A DNA stretch of 35,249 nucleotides from Clostridiales bacterium (GTDB lineage: Bacteria; Bacillota; Clostridia; Christensenellales; Aristaeellaceae), in the NCBI GenBank assembly GCA_015056265.1, contig SVGR01000012.1, forward strand, positions 1-35,249. Direction: 5' to 3'. The notes below the pieces were generated by a model. That model did no database searches, was not told the origin of the DNA, and was given only the letters and a program-made list of their open reading frames with translations. Positions 359-34,131 of this stretch are shown here, piece by piece. The position numbers and the translations under genes were made by a program. Numbering within the stretch: position 1 is the stretch's first letter; the number at the start of each line of letters is the position of its first letter.

Positions 359-3331
<2,973 letters not shown>

Positions 3332-8735: not shown

Positions 8736-8760
8736 TCCCAACTGAATCAACTTGACTTTC

Positions 8761-8784
8761 GGGCGCGGCAGCAATGCCGCGCCC
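8761..8784 (+). promoter_or_regulatory. Perfect 10-bp GC hairpin after the small CBM-like gene
   Basis: GGGCGCGGCA-GCAA-TGCCGCGCCC begins 25 bases after the stop codon. There is no U-tract, so full termination is unlikely. It would block 3' exonucleases and could raise the level of the upstream transcript relative to downstream genes. Confidence 0.65.
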
Positions 8785-8808
8785 GACCAGAAGAAAGGCG
8801 TGAAGAAC

Positions 8809-10713
8809 GTGAAAAAATTCCTGCTGATGATGCTGACTGCCCTGCTGGCGTTTTCCTGCACGGCTGTTTTGGCAGAAAGCCGCCTGCCCCATGGGCTGCA
8901 GACGGTTTTGTTCCAGACATTTGATGGGCCCCAGCCCAGCAGACCGGTGGTCTTTCCGGAAAAAAGCGGCAGCGTTTCGCTGGTGGATTCTTCCGTTGGG
9001 GGCCTGGGAAGCCTGATCACCATGGAGGATGACGGGGAATTTTATCTTTACGCTGAAAAGAACGGCGCTTTTACCGATGCAAAGGCCATCCTTTGGTATC
9101 TGGAAAACCGGGGAACGGATGAAATCCGGCTGTCTGTGGAGGCCCATCTGTCTAAAAAACGGGGCGAAGCGGATGAAATCTGTTCCTATGACGGGCTGTA
9201 TGCCTATGTGAGCGATGAGCAGGGCGTATGGCAGGAAAGAATATATCACATTACCAAGGGCGTGGAGCTGGAGGCCGGCGAAAAGGCATGGATGGCGCTG
9301 CCGCTGGCCGATTTCGGGCTGGATGAAACCCGGGCAGCCAGCATTACCCGGCTGAAAGTATCTCTTTACGGCCGGAATATGGCCCTTTTCCTGGATGAAT
9401 GCCAGGGCTCCGTCTATGGATTGGATGGAAAACAGGAAGAAGAATGGATTTACGTGGATCAGGAGGAAACGGATATGGAATCTTCCATCGTGCGCATTAC
9501 CGGCTATACCAAGCTGCAGGCCATCACCGATCGGCGGCCCGCCTTTGGCTCCACCGCCCCCGGGGCGTGGACGGAACTGCCTCCTTTCCCTGTTTTTAAC
9601 GGCGAAAAGGCCGTGATTACCACCAAATTATCTGCTATTTTTGATTTGAAGCCGGGGAAAACGGTGCTGGATACCAGCTGCTTTGATATTGCAGGCGGCG
9701 AAGTGATCACCGGCCCTGCCTACAAAAATCTGGAAACCCATCAGATGTATGATCCGGAGAATGTGCCGGACGGCCTTTACTGGCGCAGGAATTACTGCGG
9801 CATTTTCGGTTCCTATATTCTTGACGATGTATTTTATGCTGTGATCCACGGGGAAAACAAAAATGAAATCGTGGACGGCAAGTATTATAAAACCAATGTG
9901 AAGCCCCTCACCACCCAGTACAGCGGCGACAGCGATTTTTCCGGCGTAGGCAAGGACGGCAAATACCGGGACGCCTGGCACAATTATTTCAATTTTCTGG
10001 CGATTCAGTGGGCGCCCGTGGATGAATTGCATGAAAATGCATCCCTGCTCAATCATGATGAAGGCCCCATCGTCTGGCCGGCCGACGGATATATTTTCAC
10101 CTTCAACGGGAAGATTTATCAGGCCTGCGACGGCATCCGCCATCCTTCCGTGTATGTGGATGACGAATATATTTACGTCTATTATCTGGATTCCTCCAGC
10201 GCCAATTTCGGCATCAATGTGGCCCGGGCGCCCATTGCCTCCAAAGGCCTTCCCGGCAGCTTTATGAAGTATTACAAGGGTGAGTTTTCCCAGCCCGCCC
10301 TGCCGGAAGGCTTTGACAAGGATGATTATTCCTTCCTCTCCGTCCGGGGCGCGCCCTCCACACCGGTGGTGAAGGCCCATAATCCCATCCGTTTCTCCGT
10401 GGCGAAAATCAAGGATACGGATTGGTATGTGGGCGTGCTGGAGGATCTGGAGAACGGATATAACACCATCAAGATCAGCGTTTCCAAGGATCTGGTCACC
10501 TGGTGCGAGCCGGTGGAAATTCCTGGGGTAGGCGTGGCAGATGGATGGAGCGAAGGCAACCTTCACGATCCCTGCGTCTATAATCTGGATTTCACCTCTG
10601 CCACGGAGGTTTCTGCCGACGGATTCTATATCGTAGGCACTTCTATGGCTGCCGATCCCGAACGCTGGCCTATTACCCAGTGGATGAAGGTAGCCATTGA
10701 AATCAATGAATAA
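8809..10713 (+). CDS. Secreted protein: CBM11-like domain fused to a propeller-like domain
   Basis: About 634 residues. A signal peptide ends at TAVLAES; an AFSC stretch within it is only a weak lipobox. Residues 25-215 repeat the pattern of the two preceding proteins in diverged form (LFQTFDG, then WMALPLADFGLDETRAASIT, then LFLDECQGSVYG). The C-terminal part (about 300-630) has recurring strand patterns typical of GH43-like or sialidase-like propellers: CDGIRHPSVYVDDEYIYVYY, FSVAKIKDTDWYVGVLED, IKISVSKDLVTWCEP and NLHDPCVYNLDF. No activity can be assigned. The GTG start is preferred to an in-frame TTG 19 codons upstream, which would place the signal peptide inside the protein and overlap the hairpin. 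Confidence 0.65.
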   Translation: MKKFLLMMLTALLAFSCTAVLAESRLPHGLQTVLFQTFDGPQPSRPVVFPEKSGSVSLVDSSVGGLGSLITMEDDGEFYLYAEKNGAFTDAKAILWYLENRGTDEIRLSVEAHLSKKRGEADEICSYDGLYAYVSDEQGVWQERIYHITKGVELEAGEKAWMALPLADFGLDETRAASITRLKVSLYGRNMALFLDECQGSVYGLDGKQEEEWIYVDQEETDMESSIVRITGYTKLQAITDRRPAFGSTAPGAWTELPPFPVFNGEKAVITTKLSAIFDLKPGKTVLDTSCFDIAGGEVITGPAYKNLETHQMYDPENVPDGLYWRRNYCGIFGSYILDDVFYAVIHGENKNEIVDGKYYKTNVKPLTTQYSGDSDFSGVGKDGKYRDAWHNYFNFLAIQWAPVDELHENASLLNHDEGPIVWPADGYIFTFNGKIYQACDGIRHPSVYVDDEYIYVYYLDSSSANFGINVARAPIASKGLPGSFMKYYKGEFSQPALPEGFDKDDYSFLSVRGAPSTPVVKAHNPIRFSVAKIKDTDWYVGVLEDLENGYNTIKISVSKDLVTWCEPVEIPGVGVADGWSEGNLHDPCVYNLDFTSATEVSADGFYIVGTSMAADPERWPITQWMKVAIEINE

Positions 10714-10749: not shown

Positions 10750-11661
10750 GTGATGCTGCGCGCAGGAAAAAAATTGCCCATTGCCCGGCGGCGTGCCCGG
10801 GCGGGGTGGTGCTTCATTGGCATATGGGTGGCTGGCTTCGCCCTCTTTTTTCTCTGGCCTTTGATTCAGACGATGCTGTATTCCCTGCATGATCTGAAGC
10901 TGGCATCTGCGGGCGGGCTGGATTGGCGGGCGCTGGAAGGCGGGGCTTTTGCCAATTACAGCCGGGCCTTCCTGGTGGATCCGGATTTTCTGCCCAAGCT
11001 GACGGGAAGCCTTGGCACCACCCTGACCAAGACCGTTACCATTGTGCCCTTCAGCCTGTTTATCGCCATTGTGCTCAATCAGAAATTCCGGGGAAGATTA
11101 TGGATGCGGGCCATGTTTTTCCTGCCGGTGGTGATTACATCCGGCGTGATTATTTCCGTGGTGCGCTCTTCGGTGAATGATGTGGCCCAGGCGGGGGAGG
11201 CAGGCACCAATCTGTTTAATGCGTCCATGATGATTTCCTATCTGTATCAGATCGGTTTGCCCCCCTCCGTGGTGGATACGCTGGGCAATATCATCAATAA
11301 CAGCGTGGACGTGGTATGGTATAGCGGGGTGCAGGTGCTCTTGTTCCTGTCCGGATTGCTCTCCATTCCGGAAAGCTACCGGGAAGTGGCCAATGTGGAA
11401 GGGGCCACGGGCTGGGAATATTTCTGGAAGATTATTTTGCCGGTGATATCGCCCTATATGCTGGTCAATGCGGTATACACCATTATTGACAGCTTCTCTG
11501 ATTTCAACAACGAAGTGATGCGCTTTGTGGTGGATCAAACCTATGTGAAGGGCGCCTTTTCCTACGGCGCGGCACTGGCCTGGCTGTATTTTGCGGCGGT
11601 GTTGCTGCTCATTGGTGTGGTGGCCTGGCTTTTGAACCGGTATATCAAGAAGGTGCTGTAA
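10750..11661 (+). CDS. Sugar ABC transporter permease, MalF type
   Basis: An inner-membrane subunit of a carbohydrate importer: 303 residues with about six membrane spans, beginning WCFIGIWVAGFALFFLWPL. The EAA loop that docks the ATPase is YREVANVEGATGWEYFWKII followed by LP. GTG start, with GGAAGGAG nine bases upstream; an ATG is the very next codon. It forms a pair with the MalG-type gene 15 bases downstream, and probably serves the SBP at 5376. Confidence 0.93.
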   Translation: MMLRAGKKLPIARRRARAGWCFIGIWVAGFALFFLWPLIQTMLYSLHDLKLASAGGLDWRALEGGAFANYSRAFLVDPDFLPKLTGSLGTTLTKTVTIVPFSLFIAIVLNQKFRGRLWMRAMFFLPVVITSGVIISVVRSSVNDVAQAGEAGTNLFNASMMISYLYQIGLPPSVVDTLGNIINNSVDVVWYSGVQVLLFLSGLLSIPESYREVANVEGATGWEYFWKIILPVISPYMLVNAVYTIIDSFSDFNNEVMRFVVDQTYVKGAFSYGAALAWLYFAAVLLLIGVVAWLLNRYIKKVL

Positions 11662-11676: not shown

Positions 11677-12645
11677 ATGAACAGAAAGCATCGGCAGATA
11701 AAGGATGCCCACGGCTCCCCCGTGCGGGATTTGGGCCAGATGGGATGGAAGCTGTTCCGCTTTGCTATGATGGTGGCCTTTTCCTTTGTTATCCTTTATC
11801 CCCTGATCTATATGGTTTCCATGGCTTTCCGTCCCTCCAGGGATGTATTCGATCCGTCCGTGGTGTGGATCCCCCGGACGGTCACGGTGGAAAGTTTTGG
11901 AGAAGTGGTGCGGGTATCCAATTATCTCACCTCCTTGAAGAATACCATGATTCTTTCCCTGGGCAGCACCTTACTGCAGGTGTTTTCCTGCTCGCTGGTG
12001 GGATATGGCTTTGCCCGGTTCAAGTTCCGGGGGAGGAACCTGATGTTCTTCCTGGTGATCTTCACCATTGTTGTGCCTCCCCAAACCATCTCTCTTCCCA
12101 CCTTTATCCTCTTCCAGGATTTTGATCCCTTCGGCATTTTCCGGGCCATTACCGGAAAGGGTACCGGCATTACCCTCTTAAACAATCCCCTTTCTTTTTT
12201 CCTGATGGCCTTTATGGGCCAGGGGCTGCGCAGCGGGCTGTTCATTTTCTTTATGCGCCAGTTCTATCGTTCCATGCCCCAGGAACTGGAGGACGCCGCT
12301 ATGGTGGACGGCTGCGGCTTCACCCGCACGTATTTCCAGCTGATGCTGCCCAATGCCAGGAGCGTGCTGCTGGTAGTATTCATTCTTTCCTTGGTATGGT
12401 ATTGGAACGATTATTATCAGAGCACCATTTATCTCAGTTCCTATTCCACCGTATCCACCAATCTGGCCAATCTGACCGCCATTATGGAATCCCGCTTGGG
12501 CAATGAAGTGGCCTACGATCCCTATCAGACAGTGACCATGATCCAGGCCTGCAGCTTGCTGACCCTGGCGCCGCTGCTGCTGATTTACATTATCGTCCAA
12601 CGGAAATTTGTGGCTGGTGTGGAGCGCAGCGGTATCGTGGGCTAA
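11677..12645 (+). CDS. Sugar ABC transporter permease, MalG type
   Basis: 322 residues and about six spans. The EAA loop is ELEDAAMVDGCGFTRTYFQL followed by MLP, and the protein ends on a VQRKFVAGVERSGIVG tail typical of MalG-like proteins. AAAGGGGGAG precedes the ATG. It is the second subunit of the pair with the gene just upstream. It is followed after 11 bases by a second SBP gene, so two complete import sets without ATPases are fused in one transcript. Confidence 0.93.
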   Translation: MNRKHRQIKDAHGSPVRDLGQMGWKLFRFAMMVAFSFVILYPLIYMVSMAFRPSRDVFDPSVVWIPRTVTVESFGEVVRVSNYLTSLKNTMILSLGSTLLQVFSCSLVGYGFARFKFRGRNLMFFLVIFTIVVPPQTISLPTFILFQDFDPFGIFRAITGKGTGITLLNNPLSFFLMAFMGQGLRSGLFIFFMRQFYRSMPQELEDAAMVDGCGFTRTYFQLMLPNARSVLLVVFILSLVWYWNDYYQSTIYLSSYSTVSTNLANLTAIMESRLGNEVAYDPYQTVTMIQACSLLTLAPLLLIYIIVQRKFVAGVERSGIVG

Positions 12646-12656
12646 GGAGGAAACAA

Positions 12657-15347
12657 ATGATGAAAAAGCAATGTGCCCTGGCCCTGGCGCTGATGATGCT
12701 GTTTGCCTGCGCCGGTATGGCGGAAACTGCGTCCGCCGGCGGGGAAGAGGGGCGCCTTCTGGCAGAGGGGGAATGCCTTTCCCTCCCCATGCCCCTGGAT
12801 CAGCCCGGAGAATATGCCATCCGGCTGGATTGGTATTGCCCCCAGGGCAGCGTGAACCCGGAGATTTCCCTGACGGTGGACGGCACGGTTTTGCTTGCCC
12901 GCCACAGCCTCACCCGCGTGTGGCAGGATACGGCGGAATCCTTCCTGGAAAACGGCCGTTTCCGCACCGATAACCGGGGCAATGAAATTACCCCTTCTCA
13001 GGAAAATGCCCTGATCTGGCAGCAGGGCTTGATCCGGGATATGGATGGATACAGCGATGACCCCATGACCGTTTCTCTGCAGGCTGGCGAACATACCCTG
13101 GAAATCCGCTGCCTGAGGGAGCAGGTGATGATCGGCGGCGCCGCCTTTGTTCAGATCCCATCCCCTGCCCCTTATCAGGCGGATGCGGGGATGGAAAAGG
13201 CCGGGGCTACGCTGGTTCTGGAGGCGGAAATGGCCGCCCGCCGCTCCGATGCGGTGCTGACCCCCGGCTCTGACCGGTCCACCCCCTCCACCCAGCCCAA
13301 TGACGCCTACAAAAAAATGCAGAATATCATCGGCGGCGCCTCCTGGCGCTATCCCGGCCAATGGATTGAATGGGAAGCGGAGATTGCGGAAAGCGGCTGG
13401 TATCTTTTGCAGTTCAAATATCGGCAGGATACTCTTCGGGGGCTGCCTGCCGCCCGGCGGCTGTATGTGGACGGGCTTGTTCCCTGCGCCGAGATGGCCT
13501 GCCTGGAATTTGGCTACGGCCAGGATTGGCAGACCCTGATCCCCCGGACCGAAAACGGGGATGCCATCTATCTGTATTTGGATGCAGGCGTGCACACCAT
13601 CAGGCTGGAGGCCATTCTGGGAGAAATGGGAGGAACGCTGGAGATTCTGGAACAGGCGGTGTATGATCTCAACGCCCTGTACCGGCGCATCATCATGATC
13701 ACCGGCACCTCCCCCGATCCTTACCGGGATTATTATCTGGAAACGGAAATCCCCGAACTGATCGACACCATGTCCGGTACCGCCCGGCTGCTGGAGCAGC
13801 AGGTGGCCCTGCTGGAGGAAAAGAGCGGAAGCGGCAACCAGGCTGCCATCATGCACGAGGTGATCCGTCAGTTGGATAGCTTCGTGGAGCGGCCCAATAC
13901 CATCCAGAAGCGGCTGGACAGCTACAAGAACAATATTTCTTCCCTGTCCGAACTGCTGCTCTCCCTGCGGGAACAGCCCTTGGCCCTGGATACCATCGCC
14001 CTTTCCGGCAGTGAAAAAATCGCAGTGAAGGAAAATGCCTCCGGCCTGGAGCGGATCGGTTATCGGGGCGAAATGTTCCTTTCTACCTTCTCTGCCGATT
14101 ACAATGCGGTGGGAAGCGCCTATGATCAGGAGCAGAGCCTGACGGTGTGGATCAACACTGGCAATATTGCCGCCGCCGGTACCGCCAGCGGCAGCGATCA
14201 GGCCCAGGTGCTCAAGCAACTCATTGACGATGATTTTGTGAAAAACACCGGCATTGCCGTCAACGTATCCCTGGTCAGCACCTCCGATACCCTGACCCAG
14301 GCCATCCTGGCCGGGGAAGGCCCGGATGTGGCGCTGTTCGTGCCCAAGGGCACCCCCACCACTTTGGGCATGCGGGGCGCGGTCAAGGAACTGACAAAAA
14401 TGCCGGGCTTTGACCAGCTGAAAGGGCGCTTCGGAGAGGCTTCCTTTATCGGCTATTCCTGGCAGGGACAATGCTATGCCCTGCCGGAAACCATGAGCTT
14501 TAATATGCTCTTTGTGCGTACGGATATTTTTGAGGAGCTGGGTCTTTCCATCCCCAATACCTGGGATGAATTTATGGACGTTACCGCCAAGCTGCAAAAG
14601 CGTAATCTGATGGTGGGCATTCCGGAAAATCAGCAGGTATTTGAGGCGCTGCTGATGCAGCGGGGCGGGGCAGTGTATGCGGACGATCTCAGATCCACCG
14701 CTCTTTCCGGGGAGGCGGGCATCGATGCCTTCACCCAGTGGACCAATCTGTATGTGCAGTATGGTCTTCCGGTGAGCTTTGATTTTTTCAACCGCTTCCG
14801 TACCGGCGAAATGGCCATGGGCATCGTACCCCTGACCATGTATACCCAGCTTTCCGTGGCCGCTCCGGAGCTGAAGGGCCTGTGGCAGATGGCCCCCATC
14901 CCCGGCACCGTGACGGAAAGCGGCCTGTCCCGACTGGAAAGCTGCTCCGGCACCGGGGCCATGATCATTGCGGGCACGGATAAGGCGGACGCCGCCTGGC
15001 AATTTATCGACTGGTGGACCAGCGATGATATCCAATATCGCTTCGGCGTCATGCTGGAAATCCTCATCGGCACCGCCTCCCGGTATAATACCGCCAATCT
15101 GAACGCTTTTGAAAGGCTGCCCTGGTCTCATCAGGAACTGGAGGCCCTGTCCGCCCAGCGGCAGCAGGTGTGGGATACGCCCCAGACCCCGGCCACCTAT
15201 TACATCACCCGCAGCCTGACCAACGCCTTCCGCGCAGCGGTTTACAGCCACGAAAATCCCCGGGAGGTATTGGAAAAATACAGCCATGACATGGATGCGG
15301 AATTGAAGCGCAAATACGAAGAGTTTTCCTGGGAGGGGATGCCATGA
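12657..15347 (+). CDS. Large SBP fused to two N-terminal carbohydrate-binding-like domains
   Basis: 896 residues, roughly twice the length of a normal SBP. The signal peptide contains MLFACAG, a possible but imperfect lipobox. Residues about 30-170 and 180-345 are two beta-sandwich domains in the style of CBM6/CBM35 or similar modules (GEYAIRLDWYCPQGS; YPGQWIEWEAEIAESGWYLL; DGLVP...GVHTIRLEAILGEMGG). Residues about 345-465 are mostly helical (YLETEIPELIDTMSGTARLL, SYKNNISSLSELLLSLREQ). From about 485 to the end it is a sugar-binding SBP (GEGPDVALFVPKGTPTTLG, FNMLFVRTDIFEELGLSIPN, FNRFRTGEMAMGIVPLTMYT). Its stop codon overlaps the next permease start. The fusion suggests that glycan capture and delivery happen on one polypeptide. 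Confidence 0.85.
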   Translation: MMKKQCALALALMMLFACAGMAETASAGGEEGRLLAEGECLSLPMPLDQPGEYAIRLDWYCPQGSVNPEISLTVDGTVLLARHSLTRVWQDTAESFLENGRFRTDNRGNEITPSQENALIWQQGLIRDMDGYSDDPMTVSLQAGEHTLEIRCLREQVMIGGAAFVQIPSPAPYQADAGMEKAGATLVLEAEMAARRSDAVLTPGSDRSTPSTQPNDAYKKMQNIIGGASWRYPGQWIEWEAEIAESGWYLLQFKYRQDTLRGLPAARRLYVDGLVPCAEMACLEFGYGQDWQTLIPRTENGDAIYLYLDAGVHTIRLEAILGEMGGTLEILEQAVYDLNALYRRIIMITGTSPDPYRDYYLETEIPELIDTMSGTARLLEQQVALLEEKSGSGNQAAIMHEVIRQLDSFVERPNTIQKRLDSYKNNISSLSELLLSLREQPLALDTIALSGSEKIAVKENASGLERIGYRGEMFLSTFSADYNAVGSAYDQEQSLTVWINTGNIAAAGTASGSDQAQVLKQLIDDDFVKNTGIAVNVSLVSTSDTLTQAILAGEGPDVALFVPKGTPTTLGMRGAVKELTKMPGFDQLKGRFGEASFIGYSWQGQCYALPETMSFNMLFVRTDIFEELGLSIPNTWDEFMDVTAKLQKRNLMVGIPENQQVFEALLMQRGGAVYADDLRSTALSGEAGIDAFTQWTNLYVQYGLPVSFDFFNRFRTGEMAMGIVPLTMYTQLSVAAPELKGLWQMAPIPGTVTESGLSRLESCSGTGAMIIAGTDKADAAWQFIDWWTSDDIQYRFGVMLEILIGTASRYNTANLNAFERLPWSHQELEALSAQRQQVWDTPQTPATYYITRSLTNAFRAAVYSHENPREVLEKYSHDMDAELKRKYEEFSWEGMP

Positions 15348-16246
15348 TGAAGCGGCGGCAGATTTATACACAGAATCGCAGCCTGACCAGCTATCTGATG
15401 CTGGCCCCCTGGCTGACTCTGTTTACGGTGTTCACCATCCTGCCCATTCTCTCTTCGGTGGTTTTGTCCTTTACCAATTTTGATATGGTGCGCGCCCCCA
15501 AATTCCTGGGCATCAACAATTACCTCAGGCTGCTGCTGGAGGATGATGTATTCCTCATTTCTGTGAAAAATACGCTGATCTTCGCCATCGTTACCGGGCC
15601 CGTTGGGTATCTGTTCAGCTTTCTAATCGCATGGATGATCAATGACGCCGGAAAATTCGCCCGGCCGGCGCTGACGCTATTGTTCTATTCACCGGCCCTG
15701 GCAGGCAATGTGTATTTCGTATGGCAGTTTATCTTCAGCGGTGACAGCGTGGGCCTGATCAATGGGTTTCTGCTGAACCTGGGGATGATCAATGATCCCA
15801 TTCAGTGGCTCACCGACCCCAGCTACAACCTGTATGTGTGCATCATTGTGATGCTCTGGAGCAGTATGGGCACGGGCTTTCTGGCCTTCGTTGCCGGATT
15901 CAAGGGCCTAAACCGCAGCCTGTTTGAGGCGGCAGCGGTGGATGGACTGCGCAATCGCTGGCAGGAACTGTGGTATGTGACTTTGCCCCAGATGGTGCCT
16001 CAATTGCTCATCGGCGCGGTGCTTTCCATTTCCGGCGCCTTTGCGGTGGGGTATCAGACCATGGCCCTGTGCGGCTTTCCCAGCACCGATTATTCGGTGC
16101 ATACCATCGTATTGCACATTCTTGATTACGGCAATTACCGCTTTGAAATGGGATATGCCAGCGCCATCGCCGTGGTGCTGTTTGCGGCCATGGTACTCAG
16201 TTGGTTTGCCATCAATCGGGCGCTGCGCGGGATGCGGGAGGATTAA
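15344..16246 (+). CDS. Sugar ABC transporter permease, MalF/UgpA type
   Basis: 300 residues and about six spans, starting SYLMLAPWLTLFTVFTILPI. The EAA loop is LFEAAAVDGLRNRWQELWYV followed by TLP. The ATGATGA at 15344 overlaps the stop of the SBP fusion, so translation is coupled and the two should work as partners. A second in-frame ATG at 15347 is equally possible. Pairs with the following permease. Confidence 0.93.
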   Translation: MMKRRQIYTQNRSLTSYLMLAPWLTLFTVFTILPILSSVVLSFTNFDMVRAPKFLGINNYLRLLLEDDVFLISVKNTLIFAIVTGPVGYLFSFLIAWMINDAGKFARPALTLLFYSPALAGNVYFVWQFIFSGDSVGLINGFLLNLGMINDPIQWLTDPSYNLYVCIIVMLWSSMGTGFLAFVAGFKGLNRSLFEAAAVDGLRNRWQELWYVTLPQMVPQLLIGAVLSISGAFAVGYQTMALCGFPSTDYSVHTIVLHILDYGNYRFEMGYASAIAVVLFAAMVLSWFAINRALRGMRED

Positions 16247-16249
16247 TGC

Positions 16250-17110
16250 ATGAAGATTTTCCATTTTCATCGGCGGGTTTCCCGATCCCTGGGGGGCAAT
16301 CTGGCCGCCAATTTGTTCCTGCTCATCGGCGGCGCCTTTACCGCCCTGCCCCTGATCTATGCCATTCTCAATTCCTTCAAGCCCCTGAACGAGCTGTTCC
16401 TCTATCCACCCCGATTCTTTGTGCAGAATCCCACCCTGGAAAACTATTCGGGGCTGATGCGGCTGCAGCAGGAATTGCTGGTGCCCATTGAACGCTATGC
16501 TTTCAACAGCATTTTCATTTCTCTGGTGACCACGGTGGGCTATGTGCTCATTGCTGCCCTGGCAGCCTATCCCCTGGCCAAGCATCGCTTCCGGGGCAAG
16601 ATTTTTCTCACCCAATTGGTGGTTTTCGCTATCCTCTTCCGTTCGGAGGTCACCGCCATTCCTCAGTATGTGATCATGGCCAAATTGGGTATGGTGGATA
16701 GCTATTGGGCGGTGATTCTGCCGGCCATGGCCACCTCCTTTGGGGTATTCCTGATGAAGCAGTTCATGGAATCCATCCCTGCCGAGATCCTGGAATCCGC
16801 CCGGATGGACGGGGCCGGGGAATGGCGCACCCTGTGGACGGTGGTGATGCCCATGGTAAAGCCCGCCTGGCTGACGCTGGTGATTTTTACTTTCCAGGGC
16901 ATTTGGAACAACACAGGGGTGCAGTATCTCTATACCGAAACCTATAAAACCCTGCCCACCGCCCTGAGCCAGATCAGCAGTGCGGGCATCGCCCGGGCCG
17001 GCGTGGCCAGCGCCATTGCGGTGATATTGATGCTGCCGCCCATTTTGCTGTTCCTGATTTCCCAGGGTTCCGTTATTGAAACCATGGCTCATTCGGGCCT
17101 AAAGGAGTAA
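16250..17110 (+). CDS. Sugar ABC transporter permease, MalG type
   Basis: 286 residues and about six spans, with the EAA loop EILESARMDGAGEWRTLWTV followed by VMP. It begins three bases after the preceding stop, with GGGAGG upstream. The C-terminus lacks the usual VQRYFVKGL-like ending and instead reads LFLISQGSVIETMAHSGLKE, a difference seen in this kind of NHL/YIP1-linked permease. It is followed three bases later by the NHL-repeat gene. Confidence 0.92.
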   Translation: MKIFHFHRRVSRSLGGNLAANLFLLIGGAFTALPLIYAILNSFKPLNELFLYPPRFFVQNPTLENYSGLMRLQQELLVPIERYAFNSIFISLVTTVGYVLIAALAAYPLAKHRFRGKIFLTQLVVFAILFRSEVTAIPQYVIMAKLGMVDSYWAVILPAMATSFGVFLMKQFMESIPAEILESARMDGAGEWRTLWTVVMPMVKPAWLTLVIFTFQGIWNNTGVQYLYTETYKTLPTALSQISSAGIARAGVASAIAVILMLPPILLFLISQGSVIETMAHSGLKE

Positions 17111-17113
17111 GCC

Positions 17114-18601
17114 ATGAAAAGATACAGTTTGGTTTGCATGGCCGTCCTTCTGACGCTGCTGTGCGTGCCCGGATATGGGGATGTGATCTATACCGGAAGC
17201 ACCTATCAATATGATGACTGGGGCCAATCCGCCCCCGGGCCCGCCGCCTATGAGGCCGGCCAGATTATTGACGGCGCTTTCATGGGCGCCGGAAAGCTGA
17301 ATGATCCCCAAGATTTGTATGTGGATGCCGAAGGAAAGATCTATCTGGCAGATGCGGGCAACAAGCGGGTGCTGTGCCTGGATGAAAACTGGCAGCTGCA
17401 AAATACCCTGACGGGCTATACCTGGCAGGGCCAGTACATGCCCTTCCAGTATCCCTGCGGCCTGTATGTCGATGGAGAAGGAAAGCTGTACGTCTGCGAT
17501 TCTGCCCGGGGGGAAACGGTGATCCTGAATGAGGAAGGCCAGGCCATGCTGTGCCTGGGCAGGCCGGAAACGGATCTGCTGGCGGATACCGCCTCCTTCA
17601 AGCCAACCCGGGTGGTATCCGATACCACCGGCACCATTTATGTGGCATGCTTTGGACTGTATCAGGGACTGGTCACCTACGATTTTGAGGGCAATTTCAC
17701 CGGCTTTTTCGGGGCCAACCGGGTAACGGTGACGGCTGAGGTGCTGGCCTCCGCCTTCTGGAAGAGCATTTTTTCCCAGGAGCAGGCCCAGGCCATGACC
17801 CGCATCATTCCCACCGAATACGCCAGCATCTACATCGACAAAAACGACTTTATCTATGCGGTGGCCACCTCCACCGATGATTCCCGGAACGAACTGAAAA
17901 AGCTAAACGCCCTGGGCAACAATATTTTGCGTTACGTACAGAATTCCGGTTACTATGCCAAGAATAATTACGGCGATCTGGAGCGTGGCTCCATTCGTTC
18001 CAAGACCATTGACAGCCGCTTTGTGGACGTGCATGCAGGGGAAAATGGCGTCATTGCCATTCTGGATGCGGAAAAAGGAAGGGTATTCCTCTACGATCAG
18101 CAGAGCAATCTGCTCTCCATTTTCGGGGGCAGCGGCAGCCGGAGGGGCAGTTTCCTGGGCGCCAGCGCCCTGGAAAAGGTGGGGGATAATTACGCGGTGC
18201 TGGATAAGGAAAAGAATGCCGTTACCATTTTCCGTCCCACCCGTTATGGAAAAACACTGCTGGAGGCCCTATCCTTCTACAGCAAGGGATTCTATCAGCA
18301 GTCCATGGTTCTGTGGCAGCAGCTGCTGGAGGAGAACGCCGGTTTGTCTCTGGCCTATACGGGCATCGGCAAGGCACTCTATCAGGAGGGGGAATATGAA
18401 GAATCCCTTTCCTATTTTGAAAAGGCCCATGACCGGGAAGGTTATTCCCGGGCGTACCGGGAGGTGCGCAAAGAATACATCCGCAACAATCTGATCTGGA
18501 TGCTGCCCTTGGCAGCGGCCGCCCTGTGGGGCATGGCCCGCTTGATTCGGCTGATCCGGGTGAAGGCGGGCCTTGCTAAGGCCAGAAAGGGGAAGGCATG
18601 A
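17114..18601 (+). CDS. Secreted NHL-type beta-propeller with TPR segment and C-terminal membrane anchor
   Basis: 495 residues. Signal peptide (1-22), then repeated NHL-like strands: LNDPQDLYVDAEGKIYLADA, FQYPCGLYVDGEGKLYVCDS, VSDTTGTIYVACFG and DVHAGENGVIAILDAEKGRV. Residues about 395-450 look like two tetratricopeptide units (FYSKGFYQQSMVLWQQLLEE; KALYQEGEYEESLSYFEKAH). A single membrane span (about 468-487) and a basic cytoplasmic tail follow. The propeller and TPR would face outward and could hold partner proteins or glycans. Its stop codon overlaps the start of the YIP1-like gene. No enzymatic motif is evident. Confidence 0.8.
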   Translation: MKRYSLVCMAVLLTLLCVPGYGDVIYTGSTYQYDDWGQSAPGPAAYEAGQIIDGAFMGAGKLNDPQDLYVDAEGKIYLADAGNKRVLCLDENWQLQNTLTGYTWQGQYMPFQYPCGLYVDGEGKLYVCDSARGETVILNEEGQAMLCLGRPETDLLADTASFKPTRVVSDTTGTIYVACFGLYQGLVTYDFEGNFTGFFGANRVTVTAEVLASAFWKSIFSQEQAQAMTRIIPTEYASIYIDKNDFIYAVATSTDDSRNELKKLNALGNNILRYVQNSGYYAKNNYGDLERGSIRSKTIDSRFVDVHAGENGVIAILDAEKGRVFLYDQQSNLLSIFGGSGSRRGSFLGASALEKVGDNYAVLDKEKNAVTIFRPTRYGKTLLEALSFYSKGFYQQSMVLWQQLLEENAGLSLAYTGIGKALYQEGEYEESLSYFEKAHDREGYSRAYREVRKEYIRNNLIWMLPLAAAALWGMARLIRLIRVKAGLAKARKGKA

Positions 18602-19299
18602 GCACGACGGCGCAATTTTTCCGGCATCTTTCCCAAAGCGCTCGCCGCTATGATTGGGGAAAGCTGCGGTGGAGGAATCTGGATAAGACCAAGCTGGTGT
18701 GGCCCTTCCGCATCATGTGCCATCCCATTGCCGGGATGAATGAATTAAAATATGAAGGAAGAGGATCCCTGGCCATTGCAAACGGATTGCTGATTGGGAT
18801 GCTGATCATCAATTGTTTGCAGTATACCTTGCAGGGCTTCGCCTTCAATACCAATAAGCTGACGAATTTCAGCCTGGTCAGCCAATTGGCGTCCTCCTCG
18901 CTGCTGGTGGTGCTTTTCTCCATCTGTGGCTGGGCCAGCGGGGCGCTGCTGGATGGGGAAGGCAAATTCCGGGAGATATATATCGCCGCCTGCTATGCCA
19001 TCACCCCCCAGATTCTGATGGGGGCGGTGAGCCTGGTGCTTTCCCAGTCTCTGGTGCTGGAGGAGGCGGTGTTCCTGACGCTGGTGGACGGCATCCGGCT
19101 TTTGTGGACGGCGGTCGCATTGGTGATCGGGTTTATGACGGTGCAGCAGTTCACCGTCAAAAAGACGCTGGGCGCCCTGCTGCTCACCGCATTTTTCATG
19201 GCGGCGATCTTGTTTTTGTCGGTGCTGTTCTTCAGCATGCTGCAGCAGCTTTTCGCCTTCCTTGCCTCCGTATTTACCGAAATCAACAGCCGCAGATAA
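18598..19299 (+). CDS. YIP1-family integral membrane protein
   Basis: 233 residues with a basic N-terminal cytoplasmic stretch, the HPIAGMNELKYEGRGS motif common in bacterial YIP1-like proteins just before the first span, and about five hydrophobic segments (around 60-80, 93-115, 130-150, 165-185 and 195-225). Eukaryotic Yip1 proteins work in membrane traffic; the bacterial relatives have no established function. ATGA overlap with the NHL gene and a 13-base gap to the DUF5696 gene suggest the three products act together, perhaps as a membrane platform for the adjacent permeases. Confidence 0.82.
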   Translation: MSTTAQFFRHLSQSARRYDWGKLRWRNLDKTKLVWPFRIMCHPIAGMNELKYEGRGSLAIANGLLIGMLIINCLQYTLQGFAFNTNKLTNFSLVSQLASSSLLVVLFSICGWASGALLDGEGKFREIYIAACYAITPQILMGAVSLVLSQSLVLEEAVFLTLVDGIRLLWTAVALVIGFMTVQQFTVKKTLGALLLTAFFMAAILFLSVLFFSMLQQLFAFLASVFTEINSRR

Positions 19300-19312
19300 G
19301 GAGAGAGTGGGC

Positions 19313-21460
19313 ATGAAGAAAAAAATCCTGTGCTGCCTGCTGGCGGTGCTGTGTATGCTCTCCGCACTGCCCGCCTATGCCGCCGATGTGAAATGGGCGG
19401 CGGCTGGGGAGAGCGATCAGTTGAAGCTCTATCTGGATACAAAAAATGTGATCCTGGGGGTGCAGCATAAAAAGACGGGCATGGCCTGGTATACTTCGCC
19501 ACAGGACCGCGCATCCGATACCATTGCCCAGGGCGCCATCCCCAATGATCTGGGATCCATGCTGCTGGTCAGCTATGTGGATCAGGATAACGTTCCATCT
19601 GTGGTCAGCGCCCGGGCGGGTAGTATCGCCCAGGGAACGGTGGCCCTGAAGAAAATGAAAAACGGCCAGGGGCTGGTGATTGAATTTACTTTCTCCCGCA
19701 AAAAGGAGGGCTTCATGATCCCCCTGCGCATTACCGCAGAGGGTAATGCCCTGCGGGTGGAAATACAATATGAAGGAATTGTGGAAAACGGCCCCGGCCG
19801 GATCACGGAAATAGCATTGCTTCCCTATTTTGGAGCAGGCAATGAAAAGGAAGAGGGCTTTGCCCTGATTCCCGACGGCAGCGGCGCCACCATCTCCTTC
19901 CAGGGGATGAAGCCCTGGGCCAAGGCCTACCGGGCCCGGGTTTACGGCACCGATACCACCATGAATCCGGTGTATGAAGGGGCGGGGCTCTCTCAGGTGT
20001 ATCTGCCGGTCTTCGGCCTGAGCCGGGAAAAGGGCACGGTGCTGGGGGTGATTACCCAGGGGGATGAAAATGCCTGGATTGAGGCCGTGTGCCCCGGCAT
20101 CACCAGCGGGTATGCCGCCGTGTGGCCCACCTTCATTTATCGCCAGACGGATGTGACGGTGCTGGCGGACAACACCTGGAAGGAAAAGCAGATCAATGTG
20201 ACCGGCGACCGGGTGGAAAATGTGAATCCGGTGGTGTACTATTACTTCTCTCCGGAAAGCGGCATTGGAGAAATGGCCCGACTGTACCGGGGACACCTGA
20301 AAGAAAAAATGAACGCCAAGCCCCGGACGGCGGATGCGCCTTCGCTGGTGCTGGAGGTATTCGGCGTCACCCAGAAGGCCCAATCGGTGGCCGGGGTGGT
20401 GCAGGAAACCCAGGTGACCGCCACCACCTTTGCCCAGGCCGCGCAGATGGCGGAAAAGCTGTCTCAGGCGGGGATTGATAATGCGGAAATGCAGCTTTTC
20501 GGCTTCCTGGAAGGGGGCATGTATTATGCCGACCCCGGGGAAAGCAGGTGGAATGGCCTGGCCGGGGGTGAAAAGGGCTTCCGTCAGTTGAAAGCGGCGA
20601 CGGATAAAGCGGGCATTGCCCTCTACACAGCGGCAGATGCCATGAATAATTACCAGGGCGGCAGCTTGGCAGCCATGGGCATGGCCCCTCGGCGGCTGGA
20701 TAACAGCACTGCTTGGCAGTATGCCTTTGCCCTGAGCACCGGCAACAAGAATACGGAAAGCAAATGGTTCGCCATTCGGCCCGGCAGGCTCGCCGATGTG
20801 CTGCAGCGGCTGCAAAAGGGCCTGGATGGAACGGCGGGGTTGCTGCTGCTGGGTTATGGGGACACACTGTACGGCGACTGGGGAGCGGATGAATACATCA
20901 CCCGGGTCCAGGCGGAAGAAATGATATCGGATGCCTTGCGCGGCCTGCCGGAGGAGCGGTCCTTGGCCCTGTGCGGCGCCAATCTCTACGGCGCGCTGAT
21001 TGCAGGCAGAGTGGCGGAAGCGCCCTTGCATTCCAGCGGGTATGACCTGACGGATGGAGATGTCCCCTTCTATTCCATGGTGATGGGGGAATTTGCGATC
21101 CTTTCCTCGGTGCCCCTCAATGCCCTGGGGGATGGAGCGCTGCTTTCTTGCATGGCGGCGGGCATGGCCCCGGCTTTCCGGGTGACGGGGGATTCCCCTG
21201 CAGTCTATGGGGAATCCCGGCTGAATTTTCTGTATAATTCCCGGTTTGACGCCCGGTGGAAGGATATGACCGCTGCGGCAGCGGCCTGGAAAGAAGTGCG
21301 GGAAAGAACGGAGGGCAGCCTGATGACATCCTTTGAACGCCAGGGGGATGTGAGCATCAGCACCTACGAAAATGGCGTACATCTGGCCGTGAATCACGGA
21401 ACAGAGGAAGCGGCTGCAGACGGCAGGACGATCCCTGCCGGCGGATGGCTGATCTATTGA
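19313..21460 (+). CDS. DUF5696-type secreted protein, possible glycoside hydrolase
   Basis: About 715 residues after choosing the ATG with AAGGAGAG upstream, which places a clean signal peptide (ending LPAYAAD) at the N-terminus. Residues about 30-330 look like a large beta-sandwich (LYLDTKNVILGVQHKKTGMA, FALIPDGSGATISFQGMKPW). Residues 350-640 have alternating strands and helices compatible with a barrel (GIDNAEMQLFGFLEGGMYYA, GLLLLGYGDTLYGDWGADEY), and a short C-terminal sandwich follows. A sandwich-barrel-sandwich order is common in glycosidases acting on alpha-linked sugars, but I cannot identify catalytic residues. I name it by resemblance to DUF5696 proteins; the enzymatic role is inferred. 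Confidence 0.75.
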   Translation: MKKKILCCLLAVLCMLSALPAYAADVKWAAAGESDQLKLYLDTKNVILGVQHKKTGMAWYTSPQDRASDTIAQGAIPNDLGSMLLVSYVDQDNVPSVVSARAGSIAQGTVALKKMKNGQGLVIEFTFSRKKEGFMIPLRITAEGNALRVEIQYEGIVENGPGRITEIALLPYFGAGNEKEEGFALIPDGSGATISFQGMKPWAKAYRARVYGTDTTMNPVYEGAGLSQVYLPVFGLSREKGTVLGVITQGDENAWIEAVCPGITSGYAAVWPTFIYRQTDVTVLADNTWKEKQINVTGDRVENVNPVVYYYFSPESGIGEMARLYRGHLKEKMNAKPRTADAPSLVLEVFGVTQKAQSVAGVVQETQVTATTFAQAAQMAEKLSQAGIDNAEMQLFGFLEGGMYYADPGESRWNGLAGGEKGFRQLKAATDKAGIALYTAADAMNNYQGGSLAAMGMAPRRLDNSTAWQYAFALSTGNKNTESKWFAIRPGRLADVLQRLQKGLDGTAGLLLLGYGDTLYGDWGADEYITRVQAEEMISDALRGLPEERSLALCGANLYGALIAGRVAEAPLHSSGYDLTDGDVPFYSMVMGEFAILSSVPLNALGDGALLSCMAAGMAPAFRVTGDSPAVYGESRLNFLYNSRFDARWKDMTAAAAAWKEVRERTEGSLMTSFERQGDVSISTYENGVHLAVNHGTEEAAADGRTIPAGGWLIY

Positions 21461-21479: not shown

Positions 21480-22979
21480 ATGAGGGATCATCAACTGCTG
21501 CGGGCATATTTTGAGGAATTTGCCGCACAGGATCAGGAACTGTATATCAATCTGGTGGATAATGCCCATGCGGCGGATTTCATGGCGGAGCGGGTTCCCC
21601 GGTTCAGCTGCGCGGATAAGGCATTGGAAAAATGCTGGTATTTCCGCTGGTGGACCTACCGCAAACACATCAAAAAAACCGATGGGGGCTATGTGATTAC
21701 GGAATTTCTTCCCCCTGTACCCTGGGCGGGCACCGATAATTGCATTCCCCTGGCGGCGGGCCAGCATATTCTGGAAGGCCGGTGGCTGAAGGATGAACAG
21801 ATCCTCAGCGATTATGCAGCCTTCTGGTTTGAACGGTGCAGGAAGATGCGGTATTATACCTCCTCCATTCCTTATGCCATTGGCCAGGCCTGTTTGGTGC
21901 AAGGCAAGGATGATCTGGGGCTGCGGCTGCTTGACGGTATGGATCAGGATTACCGTACCCGGGAAAAGGGCGTTACGGAAGCAGGCGTCTTCATGTCCCT
22001 GCGGGATGAAGGGCTCTTTTTTACCAGCGATAATATGGACGGCGGGGAAATTTCCGTGGGCGGCGACGGCATGCGTCCCTTTGCCAATGCCATGATGTAC
22101 GGCAATGCCCGGGCTATCGCCCGCTTTGCGGAAGCGGATGGGAACACGGATTTGCAGGCGGCCTATACCGAGCGGGCGGATAAACTGCAGCAGATGCTGA
22201 AGGAAAAGCTGTGGCAGGAGGAAGACGGATTCTTTGAAGTGCTGCGGGACGGCGGCAAGCTTTCCCGAGTGCGTGAATTGTATGGCTACGCCCCCTGGTT
22301 CACCGGCATGGATGTGGAGGAGTTCGGGGATTGCTGGAAGCATGTGATGGAGGAAGATGGCTTCCTGGCGCCCTTTGGCCTGACCTTCTGCGAACAGCGG
22401 CATCCCGGATTTTCCCTGGCCTATGAAGGCCATGAATGCCAGTGGAACGGCCCGGTATGGCCGCTGTCCAGTTCTATCGTAATGACGGGCATGATTAATG
22501 CCATCCGTCAGGGCGCTCCCGTCACCCGGGCGGACTTTGGCGAGTTGATGAAGCGGTATGTGAAATGTCATTCCTTGACGGAAAATGGCGTGACGAAGAT
22601 GTGGATTGACGAAAATCTGCATCCCTATACGGGGGATTGGATGGCCCGCACCATGCTGCGGGACCGCAAGCAGCCGCCCCTGGAGCGTGGAAAGGATTAT
22701 AATCATTCCACCTTTGCTGATCTGGTGATTACCGGCGTTGCCGGGCTGCAGCCGGCGGCGGATGATATCGTGCGTATTGATCCCATCTGCACCGCTCAGT
22801 GGCTGCCCTATTTTGCGTTGGAGGGCGTCGCTTATCACGGTGCATCCCTGGATATCATCTGGGATCAGACGGGGGACGTCTACGGCCGGGGTCATGGCCT
22901 GTCTCTGTATATTGATGGACGGCTGGCCGCCTGCAGGGCCGATCTGGGGTATCTGGAAGCGTCCATTACGAAGGCGTAA
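21480..22979 (+). CDS. MGH1-like (alpha/alpha)6-barrel glycoside hydrolase
   Basis: 499 residues without a signal peptide, so cytoplasmic. Motifs are those of the GH63/MGH1-like clan: SIPYAIGQACLV, DGGEISVGGDGMRPFANAMM (candidate acid Asp about 196), APWFTGM, YEGHECQWNGPVWPLSSSIV (candidate base Glu about 316 or 319) and DYNHSTFADLVITGVAGLQP. Such enzymes release glucose or mannose units from short oligosaccharides or glycosylated small molecules. AAAAGGGGAGAA precedes the ATG. It is the last gene of the long operon; no clear terminator follows before the next promoter at 23067. Confidence 0.82.
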   Translation: MRDHQLLRAYFEEFAAQDQELYINLVDNAHAADFMAERVPRFSCADKALEKCWYFRWWTYRKHIKKTDGGYVITEFLPPVPWAGTDNCIPLAAGQHILEGRWLKDEQILSDYAAFWFERCRKMRYYTSSIPYAIGQACLVQGKDDLGLRLLDGMDQDYRTREKGVTEAGVFMSLRDEGLFFTSDNMDGGEISVGGDGMRPFANAMMYGNARAIARFAEADGNTDLQAAYTERADKLQQMLKEKLWQEEDGFFEVLRDGGKLSRVRELYGYAPWFTGMDVEEFGDCWKHVMEEDGFLAPFGLTFCEQRHPGFSLAYEGHECQWNGPVWPLSSSIVMTGMINAIRQGAPVTRADFGELMKRYVKCHSLTENGVTKMWIDENLHPYTGDWMARTMLRDRKQPPLERGKDYNHSTFADLVITGVAGLQPAADDIVRIDPICTAQWLPYFALEGVAYHGASLDIIWDQTGDVYGRGHGLSLYIDGRLAACRADLGYLEASITKA

Positions 22980-23066: not shown

Positions 23067-23095
23067 TTGACGCGATTGCTGATGTGGTTGATAAT
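23067..23095 (+). promoter_or_regulatory. Promoter of the URO-D-fold gene
   Basis: TTGACG and GATAAT are separated by exactly 17 bases, each five of six to consensus. Transcription should begin near 23102, about 45 bases before the start codon. The 22980-23066 stretch upstream holds no feature I recognise. Confidence 0.75.
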
Positions 23096-23147
23096 ATACA
23101 TACATCAAAGGAAAAAGGGAAAAACATTCCAGAAGCAGGAGGATAGG

Positions 23148-24212
23148 ATGGCCATTCGTTTTGATATGGAGCGCATGGAAAAAGTGCGCCGGGCCCATGA
23201 GCTGTGGTGGAAGGGACAATTGGATCGGCCTCTGGTGCAGATGCGGCTCTGGGGTGCGTATCCTGCGGAAAAACGGTGCCCTGCGCCGGTGCTGAGCCAG
23301 GCCAACTGCGCCGATTTTTCCTGGTCCCCGGAGCAAGTGATAGACGCCATCGATGGACACCTTTCTCAGTTTGAATATTTGGGGGATGCTTATCCCCTGG
23401 TGAATTTCGATTGTTATGGCCCGGGGGTGCTGGCTGCCTTTTGCGGGGCAAAACTGGATAATTCTTCCGGCCGGGTGTGGTTTTTCCCGGAGGAGGAAAA
23501 GGAAATACAGGATATCCATGTGCATTACAATCCTGAAAGCCCCTGGGTGCAGCGGATCAAGGCCATTTACCGAGCGGGATTGGATAAATGGCAGGGTCTG
23601 GTGATCATGGGCATGCCGGATTTGGGCGGCGTTATGGATGTGGCCGCCACCTTCCGGGGCACGGAAAACCTGATGATGGATCTGTATGACGAACCGGAGG
23701 AAGTGCAGCGCCTATGTGGTGAAATCCAGGACGCCTGGTATGCGGCGTATCGGGATCTGGCCGGGGTGCTGGCGCCCCAGAGGTTCAACAGCAATTGGGC
23801 TGGACTGCTGTCGGAAGGGGATTCATATGTACTGCAGTGCGATTTTGCCTATATGATCGGCAATCCTATGTTCCGTCAGTTTGTGCTGTCTACCCTGAAA
23901 AAAGATACGGAAACCCTGACGCATTCCATCTATCATCTGGATGGGGTGGGTCAATTGAATCATTTGGATGATCTGCTTTCCTTAGAGGGGCTGAACGCAG
24001 TGCAGTGGGTGCCAGGGGACGGAAAACCGGGAGCCATGCATTGGCTGGATGTATACCGCAGGATTGAAAAGGCCGGAAAGCAGTGCCAGATTCTGTGCAA
24101 CGCTGGGGATTTCACTCGGGTGATGGCGGAATTCCACGGTACGCCTTATGTAAACCTGTCGATGCCCGCCGGTGAAAAGGATGCGGCCCTGAAAACCTTA
24201 GCGATTCGCTGA
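23148..24212 (+). CDS. URO-D/MtaA-fold family protein (function unknown)
   Basis: 354 residues with the uroporphyrinogen decarboxylase-like barrel pattern: FPEEEKEIQDIHV, GMPDLGGVMDVAATFRGTEN, LMMDLYDEPEEVQRLCGEIQ and YHLDGVGQLNHLDDLL followed later by NAVQWVPGDGKP. True HemE proteins have an arginine-rich substrate site that is not evident, and no other heme genes are nearby. This branch of the fold is repeatedly found beside glycoside-utilisation genes in Clostridia, where it may act on methyl groups or on an unknown metabolite. AGGAGGAT lies before the chosen ATG; an in-frame start 27 codons earlier lies inside the promoter. It has its own promoter and terminator. Confidence 0.75.
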   Translation: MAIRFDMERMEKVRRAHELWWKGQLDRPLVQMRLWGAYPAEKRCPAPVLSQANCADFSWSPEQVIDAIDGHLSQFEYLGDAYPLVNFDCYGPGVLAAFCGAKLDNSSGRVWFFPEEEKEIQDIHVHYNPESPWVQRIKAIYRAGLDKWQGLVIMGMPDLGGVMDVAATFRGTENLMMDLYDEPEEVQRLCGEIQDAWYAAYRDLAGVLAPQRFNSNWAGLLSEGDSYVLQCDFAYMIGNPMFRQFVLSTLKKDTETLTHSIYHLDGVGQLNHLDDLLSLEGLNAVQWVPGDGKPGAMHWLDVYRRIEKAGKQCQILCNAGDFTRVMAEFHGTPYVNLSMPAGEKDAALKTLAIR

Positions 24213-24355: not shown

Positions 24356-24432
24356 GCGCCCCTAGCTCAGCTGGATAGAGTGTTTGACTACGAATCAAAA
24401 GGTCACAGGTTCGAATCCTGTGGGGCGCGCCA
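24356..24432 (+). tRNA. tRNA-Arg (anticodon ACG)
   Basis: A complete cloverleaf of 77 bases. The acceptor stem pairs GCGCCCC with GGGGCGC, with a G discriminator and an encoded CCA. The D-arm carries AGCTCAGCTGGATAGAG, the anticodon stem pairs TTTGA with TCAAA around CTACGAA (ACG, read as ICG), and the T-arm is ACAGG-TTCGAAT-CCTGT. It reads CGU/CGC/CGA arginine codons. Its own promoter and terminator make it a single-gene unit. Confidence 0.97.
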
Positions 24433-24804: not shown

Positions 24805-24834
24805 TTGACATAATTAGTTAATATAATATATAAT
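24805..24834 (+). promoter_or_regulatory. Consensus promoter of the second uptake operon
   Basis: A perfect TTGACA and a perfect TATAAT are separated by 18 AT-rich bases. Transcription should start near 24841, which rules out the upstream ATG at 24849 as a well-spaced start. No operator-like symmetry stands out. Confidence 0.8.
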
Positions 24835-24881
24835 ATGTGGCATGTTAAATGAAAAGCCTTCAAGTGGGAGGAAAGTTATCC

Positions 24882-25844: not shown

Positions 25845-25856
25845 GGAGGGATGATT

Positions 25857-26774: not shown

Positions 26775-26797
26775 TGCGCCAATCTCATTTTTGTTCA

Positions 26798-26820
26798 TAA
26801 CGCGTTGTTTGGACGCGTTA
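26798..26820 (+). promoter_or_regulatory. Intercistronic stem-loop before the SBP gene
   Basis: TAACGCGT-TGTTTGG-ACGCGTTA is a perfect 8-bp stem without a T-run, 34 bases before the SBP start. Such elements often protect the SBP mRNA from decay or mark a processing site, allowing more SBP than permease. Confidence 0.55.
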
Positions 26821-26853
26821 GAGATTAATCTACCAAGCGAAAGGAGTACCCCC

Positions 26854-31885: not shown

Positions 31886-31899
31886 AAGGAAGAATGAGC

Positions 31900-34046: not shown

Positions 34047-34131
34047 ATACTTGGTATGGTGTGATATTTCTATCTATACAGATGGTATACCATCCGTTCC
34101 GTATATTTTTCTTGCCCGGAGGCGAATTACT

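Follow-up and report, generated by a model that had tools for sequence, protein, structure and literature searches.

Importers of the CUT1 family, which belong to the ATP-binding cassette (ABC) transporters, are usually pictured as a single sugar-binding protein (SBP), a pair of permeases, and an ATPase dimer. What kind of machine results when such genes are tied to those of a membrane-anchored NHL propeller (NHL-TM), a Yip1-family protein (YIP1), and a large secreted DUF5696 protein, three parts whose roles seem not to have been worked out? The question is raised by contig SVGR01000012.1 of a Clostridiales bacterium (GenBank assembly GCA_015056265.1; 2.36 Mb, 176 contigs, 77.65% complete), of which positions 1 to 35,249, called the window here, were analyzed as a whole. 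A first-pass annotation had singled out six of its genes as a candidate for a tightly coupled glycan-acquisition machine. Inspection of the open reading frames confirms these six genes in place, separated by 4-base overlaps or gaps of 3–13 bases. The borders of the set were drawn too narrowly, since a second permease pair and a probable second SBP had been missed. The window genes belong to a conserved block, some nine genes long, which occurs in plant-fibre-eating gut and rumen bacteria and is copied as a unit, and the association of these genes is far above chance. In the open-access literature we found no publication that names DUF5696 (PF18952) or describes a set of YIP1, NHL, and sugar ABC genes; subscription papers and preprints were not covered. 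The nine roles are filled in the window as follows.

5376–6845, forward strand: SBP1, an extracellular sugar-binding protein of conventional type that probably serves the P1 pair (SBP_bac_8, 6.8e-19)
10750–11661, forward strand: P1A, MalF-like permease of the first pair (BPD_transp_1, 26.2 bits against a cut-off of 26.4; UgpA, 8.1e-8)
11677–12645, forward strand: P1B, MalG-like permease of the first pair (BPD_transp_1, 9.9e-11; UgpE, 2.5e-20)
12657–15347, forward strand: long SBP, with a signal peptide, about 480 residues weakly resembling the carbohydrate-binding modules (CBMs) CBM35 and CBM6, and an SBP domain at residues 514–814
15344–16246, forward strand: P2A, MalF-like permease of a module-specific family (BPD_transp_1), overlapping the long SBP by 4 bases
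16250–17110, forward strand: P2B, MalG-like permease (BPD_transp_1), after a gap of 3 bases
17114–18601, forward strand: NHL-TM, a secreted NHL beta-propeller with a TPR-like stretch, a C-terminal membrane anchor, and a basic tail (NHL, 8.4e-13), after a gap of 3 bases
18598–19299, forward strand: YIP1, a Yip1-family protein with five transmembrane (TM) segments (Yip1, 6.3e-11), overlapping NHL-TM by 4 bases
19313–21460, forward strand: DUF5696, a secreted GH129/DagB-like protein (DUF5696, 2.7e-114 to 2.9e-114), after a gap of 13 bases

The P1 pair and the gene of a secreted protein at 8752–10713 run in the same direction as the long SBP and lie upstream of it with gaps of 11–36 bases, 11 bases separating the end of P1B from the start of the long SBP. 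Beyond the secreted protein, further upstream, stand two small secreted proteins and SBP1. For DUF5696, the Met at 19313 is preferred as the start; the mechanical open reading frame begins earlier, with a TTG at 19262.

Further copies of the block were collected by alignment to P2A alone, which gave at least 588 matches; the best 80 served as named loci, and the sample leans toward close relatives because it holds the best matches to one query. Each open reading frame was assigned once, to its best role. The canonical order in these loci is long SBP, P2A, P2B, NHL-TM, YIP1, DUF5696, P1A, and P1B, with an SBP usually next in line. The long SBP occurs in 80 of 80 loci, P2B in 79, NHL in 76, YIP1 in 71, and DUF5696 in 70; P1A and P1B each occur in 65, the remaining 15 loci having less than 1.5 kb of stretch left. 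None of the eight core genes is absent from a named locus where at least 1.5 kb remained past the final module gene. Of the 80 loci, 58 have an SBP after P1B, 20 others have less than 1.5 kb left, and two (L046 and L072) have no trailing SBP despite about 2 kb. At strict thresholds all eight genes are found in 60 of the 80 loci, 55 of which also have the SBP, and the median intergenic gaps among the eight range from −8 to 16.5 bases, as computed from mechanical reading-frame starts. Most hosts are metagenome-assembled genomes (MAGs) of Clostridia and Lachnospiraceae; the set also has three Butyrivibrio records that carry no MAG label, Candidatus Epulonipiscium viviparus, and nine loci of Treponema/Spirochaetaceae.

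The source genome itself holds seven copies of the module, which coincide with its seven DUF5696 loci, and the stretches around them carry the same genes, including a distinct second pair P1A–P1B. The P1 pair is thus conserved both here and in the named loci, and the idea that the six genes are the full unit was rejected. Departures from the canonical plan occur: the P1 pair precedes the long SBP in both the window and L013, the position of SBP1 in the window also differs, and in L012 P2B is relocated downstream. The copy on contig C117 (L011) has NHL as its first gene, at a contig end; an additional module-type P2A on another contig (G000:C175:774-1673) is possibly the missing front of that copy.

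Pairing of the genes was then measured across 60 genomes, the source genome included. Here, 66 of 68 Yip1 matches lie 377–1620 bases upstream of a DUF5696 gene on the same strand, and by script 65 of 70 long DUF5696 genes have such a Yip1; in the 66th case (G011), the script allotted Yip1 to a fragment row of the same DUF5696 gene. Of the 25 weak or partial DUF5696 rows, no other has a Yip1. Among the remaining four long DUF5696 genes is one on contig C40 of the source genome, whose YIP1 was missed by Pfam and detected by a custom profile. In the source genome, all six Yip1 matches adjoin DUF5696 and lie inside modules. Yip1 is nearly confined to the module in these 60 genomes, and its presence as a random neighbor was rejected. 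P2A scores in the same set are bimodal, with 71 matches at or above 343.9 bits and the rest at or below about 178; the 32 genomes with a long DUF5696 are the same 32 that have a high-scoring P2A, and 63 of the 71 high-scoring matches have a DUF5696 within 8 kb downstream. At the level of the phylum (299 genomes, source genome included), DUF5696 occurs in 26 at a threshold of 1e-30, and Yip1, present in 130 genomes, is common beyond the module. Outside the source genome, Yip1 lies directly upstream of at least 30 of 44 DUF5696 matches, 23 of those in frames of more than 600 aa; the Yip1 rows used came mainly from genomes bearing DUF5696, at most four DUF5696 genes were scored per genome, and no listed Yip1 row that was left out shares a contig with an unmatched DUF5696. 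A survey of gene co-occurrence, run as a potential refutation of the first-pass annotation, was strongly favorable (80 loci; 66 of 68 Yip1; 32 of 32 genomes), and its claim of one conserved unit is borne out by synteny, the Yip1–DUF5696 pairing, and the co-occurrence of P2A with DUF5696.

Gene fusion and co-duplication add to this. NHL and YIP1 form a single open frame in three of the seven copies of the source genome (L008, L010, and L012), Pfam finds both domains in the single proteins of L010 and L029, and 19 of the 66 DUF5696-linked Yip1 matches lie in fusion-sized frames of more than 500 aa. In hydropathy profiles, four fusions show a signal, one anchor, and then five TM-like segments, with the join on the basic side, which is probably cytoplasmic. 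Five genomes (G121, G141, G099, G194, and G224) have 8–11 Yip1 matches each, mostly in frames of 690–840 aa that fit an NHL–YIP1 fusion. In Mantel tests on 19 loci with all eight genes by profile, same-genome paralogs included, distances correlate for all pairs of the eight proteins (r 0.83–0.96; all p 0.0005, the minimum attainable value). The long SBP and P2A/P2B are the most tightly correlated (0.93–0.96); NHL, DUF5696, and the P1 genes correlate with one another at 0.93–0.95. Mean identity is highest for P2A (51%) and P2B (47%) and lowest for DUF5696 (25%).

The transport components are of CUT1 type: the sugar-binding part is present as SBP_bac_1/8 proteins, beside two different kinds of BPD_transp_1 permease with an EAA-type loop, detected by a script pattern in P2A and P2B only and seen by eye in P1A and P1B. 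P1A and P2A are 21% identical. In the long SBP, the SBP_bac_1 match (1.7e-32) covers residues 514–793 only, the nearest PDB entry to this domain is Lin1841 (1.6e-16), and mean column identity in its alignment (A6) is 47%; a helical part of the N-terminal region was judged by eye. The first-pass annotation had described a double-size SBP with carbohydrate-binding-like domains: the size holds, and the CBM-like half is weakly supported, falling below the cut-off in the window. In five other long SBPs scanned, L072 just passes CBM_35 (29.2 bits), L046 (CBM_35) and L013 (CBM_6) stay below the cut-off, and L109 and L106 have no CBM match. No MalK/MsmX-type ATPase was found among the window proteins scanned; elsewhere in the source genome there are four OB_MalK matches, one of them below the cut-off. 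In its SBP, its MalF/MalG-like permeases with EAA-type loops, and the lack of an ATPase gene found in the block, the module resembles known CUT1 importers such as MalEFG-K, UgpABE, and MsmEFG with its shared MsmX. It differs from them in having two permease pairs, usually two SBPs, one of double size, and three extra conserved proteins.

A possible role for two of these extra proteins comes from Bacillus. NHL-TM has a signal-like N-terminus, one TM-like segment at residues 460–478, and a TPR match below the Pfam cut-off; YIP1 has five TM-like segments by hydropathy. In the accessible part of the report on YknWXYZ, the Yip1 protein YknW modulates assembly of the ABC transporter YknXYZ, which includes the anchored extracellular protein YknX (PMC4887032). 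In both systems an ABC transporter works with a protein of the Yip1 family and with an extracellular protein that is anchored. YknYZ is a MacB-type exporter with its own ATPase, whereas the module permeases are of the BPD_transp_1, SBP-dependent importer type, and a membrane-fusion protein there stands where the module has an NHL propeller. By analogy with YknW, YIP1 and the anchored NHL protein should join surface proteins to the permeases.

What DUF5696 contributes depends on whether it cuts glycans, as had been proposed. Hydropathy shows only an N-terminal signal-like segment. Profiles of module DUF5696 proteins match the alpha-glycosidases DagB (5opq), the related 8rzg, and the GH129 enzyme NagBb (5wzn) with values from 3.8e-13 to 2.4e-9, more weakly with alignment A1; the matches cover the N-terminal domain and a portion of the barrel. 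By these profiles DUF5696 is a distant relative of GH129-like glycosidases that is embedded in a transporter block. We take one of the two catalytic positions of NagBb to be Asp330. In a MAFFT alignment at about 20–25% identity, the D330 column (the Asp before Gly-Trp) holds Phe in the window protein, Asp in none of 60 canonical copies (Ser or Thr in 48), and a residue other than Asp in 22 of 24 module copies of the source genome and its relatives, or 82 of 84 overall; the GH129-like protein L035 keeps the Asp. The column equated with D435 was placed through L035, and the match is approximate because its two Asp residues are 113 apart against 105 in NagBb numbering; it holds Gly in the window protein and Asp in 51 of 60 canonical, two of seven source-genome, and nine of 17 relatives' copies. 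According to the accessible part of one study, DagB is active with Asp435 alone of the two catalytic residues of NagBb (PMC5698469), so DUF5696 proteins, the canonical ones above all, may be active.

With Phe and Gly at the two aligned catalytic Asp positions, the window protein was rejected as a plain GH129-type glycan cutter, and the cutting role assigned to it by the first-pass annotation is not supported. It probably lacks enzyme activity of the GH129/DagB type, and an enzyme of another design is possible. L033 and L036 have Asp at both aligned columns, in a different local context, and may be active enzymes. GH129 proper (PF11308) occurs in two of the 60 genomes, on contigs with no listed long DUF5696 match. 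In L027:5131-9849 and L028:9076-13884, DUF5696 is enlarged to about 1570–1600 aa; the extra regions of the L027 protein have no Pfam match.

We favor a single CUT1-type glycan importer in which YIP1 and NHL would, much as YknW does, scaffold surface receptors onto two permease pairs, and we give this reading a probability of about 0.47. Outside the cell, glycan chains trimmed by other enzymes would be held by the window DUF5696 (probably a binder rather than a cutter), by the NHL propeller, and by the CBM-like part of the long SBP. Fragments would then be passed by the long SBP and SBP1 to P2A–P2B and P1A–P1B, which would sit side by side and take up products of the same glycan. YIP1 and the anchored NHL protein, fused in many copies, would scaffold the parts, and ATP hydrolysis would be supplied by shared MalK/MsmX-type ATPases encoded elsewhere. 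That YIP1 and NHL act as a scaffold, that the two pairs share one complex, and that DUF5696 serves as a receptor is what we infer. A stronger form is one membrane supercomplex, in which a single Yip1/NHL scaffold would hold all four permeases together with both binding proteins and a receptor derived from a pseudo-glycosidase; this double-barrelled polysaccharide importer would be to Bacillota and Spirochaetes what SusCD is to Bacteroidota, and we consider it somewhat unlikely; no family of the SusC/SusD type (TonB-dependent barrel and lipoprotein) was found among the window proteins scanned.

Several points weigh against the favored reading. Gene order and distance correlation can arise from linkage or co-regulation, or from shared descent alone; the link between P1 and P2 is purely genetic, and two different sugars could be carried. 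Being top matches to a single query, the 80 loci favor close relatives, and the 12 module copies behind the P2A model all come from this genome and its relatives. In the source genome, the L010 copy has no P2B within the stretch examined. The window long SBP scores 20–21 bits for CBM_35 against a cut-off of 28. The loss of catalysis in DUF5696 is not certain, because a third acidic position of L035, in a gappy region, aligns with Glu in the window copy and with one of the two acidic residues, Asp or Glu, in 37 of 60 canonical ones. Finally, the signal from glycoside hydrolase (GH) family GH10 among relatives of the source genome is weak: of its 116 matches in the 60 genomes, only eight have a module gene within 12 kb, with three to four expected by a hand estimate of chance; a xylan substrate, considered below, is therefore not general.

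An alternative is two ordinary, independent CUT1 importers in one operon, with NHL, YIP1, and DUF5696 as co-regulated surface proteins of separate function and no supercomplex. The low identity of P1A and P2A (21%), the usual presence of an SBP near each pair, and the upstream rather than downstream place of P1 in the window and L013 are in keeping with this, as are the distances, in which P2 correlates best with itself and the long SBP (0.93–0.96) and P1 with itself, NHL, and DUF5696 (0.93–0.95). Two separate importers would fit less well with P1 never being missing from the named loci where room exists, with eight genes duplicated together, or with the NHL–YIP1 fusions, and we consider them unlikely. 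Quite improbable, in our view, is a cut-and-import machine, with DUF5696 as an active exo-glycosidase whose active site resembles that of DagB and whose products go straight to the permeases. The family profile does match DagB (7.9e-13) and NagBb (2.1e-9), DagB is active with one of the two catalytic residues of NagBb (PMC5698469, accessible part), the D435-equated Asp is frequent in canonical copies, the further acidic position is often retained, and L033 and L036 have both Asp columns intact. Against it stand the missing D330 Asp in 60 of 60 canonical and 22 of 24 other copies and the residues of the window protein in both columns.

NHL propellers, like TPRs, serve as general interaction modules, and AraC regulators lie in many flanks of canonical loci (19 of 102 flank proteins); NHL-TM and YIP1 might thus be a membrane glycan sensor or organizer that regulates the operon or clusters transporters, without being part of a permease. 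We hold this to be very unlikely: no kinase, cyclase, sigma, or DNA-binding domain was found in the window proteins or the two fusions scanned (Pfam, threshold 0.001), and in the named loci NHL–YIP1 sits between transporter genes, though not in the window and L013.

Which glycans would such an importer serve? From 182 open reading frames flanking canonical loci, 119 were chosen (mostly the nearest two upstream per locus, with downstream ones) and 102 were scanned with Pfam, giving GH10 in 13 and GH43 in 13, besides the AraC regulators. A GH10 homologue occurs in 17 of the 80 loci, confirmed by Pfam for L067; in nine (L064, L066, L067, L070, L073, L075, L082, L090, and L105) it lies within 85 bases of the long SBP frame or overlaps it, in the same direction. 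In the L009 copy of the source genome, a GH10 match (C60:33197-34180) lies about 0.4 kb ahead of the long SBP frame. Xylan is likely the glycan of part of the canonical copies. Gram-positive polysaccharide utilization loci, such as the xylan loci of Butyrivibrio, likewise place GH10, GH43, and AraC genes next to those of a sugar ABC importer; in the main text, as far as accessible, SBPs and permeases are described and NHL and YIP1 are not mentioned (PMC6344614). Other copies in the source genome have other neighbors: GH43, GH2, and BNR-type proteins for L011, two GH43 for L012, and a DUF4874/DUF4832 protein for L013; the L008 neighbor scanned had no Pfam match. Seven copies in one genome, and about ten Yip1 matches in some others, suggest that the module serves several glycans.

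The remaining proteins around the window module include the following.

362–3325, reverse strand: LacZ-type GH2, divergent, a probable locus-specific enzyme
3335–4213, reverse strand: AraC-family regulator, divergent, probably locus-specific
8752–10713, forward strand: secreted protein with no Pfam match, a probable local addition outside the nine recurring roles
21480–22979, forward strand: MGH1-like glycoside hydrolase (PF22422, 1.5e-51), a probable locus-specific enzyme, 19 bases past DUF5696

With the LacZ-type GH2 and the AraC regulator upstream, a beta-galactoside, as guessed in the first-pass annotation, is possible as the window glycan; the substrate is not settled by the neighbors, which are the GH2, the MGH1-like enzyme, and a GH32/43/130-like protein. 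Two proteins resembling uroporphyrinogen decarboxylase (23067–24212 and 31894–33039; URO-D at 18.7 bits, below the cut-off, and 62.7 bits) lie among the glycan genes. Folds of the URO-D type include methyl-group transferases, so O-methylated sugars are possible. The secreted proteins at 6864–8000 and 8073–8735 are similar by eye and have no Pfam match at 0.001; L013 encodes a 1155-aa protein related to the latter. After the cluster come a tRNA-Arg gene (24356–24432, anticodon acg), covered by an apparently spurious 122-aa open reading frame, and a terminator-like hairpin. A separate ABC importer with two permeases and a 603-aa SBP (24805–28602) begins just after a 12/12 sigma-70-type promoter match with an 18-base spacer. 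The protein at 34051–35247, probably secreted, runs past the window end; its von Willebrand A match is weak and below the cut-off.

More generally, the constancy of the second permease pair, Yip1, anchored propeller, and DUF5696 in 80 loci of Bacillota and Spirochaetes, wherever enough sequence was left, suggests that fibre degraders build larger importers than textbooks show. If the favored reading is true, it would offer a testable role for bacterial Yip1 proteins and for DUF5696, and it would bear on how Clostridia of the rumen and gut compete for plant fibre.

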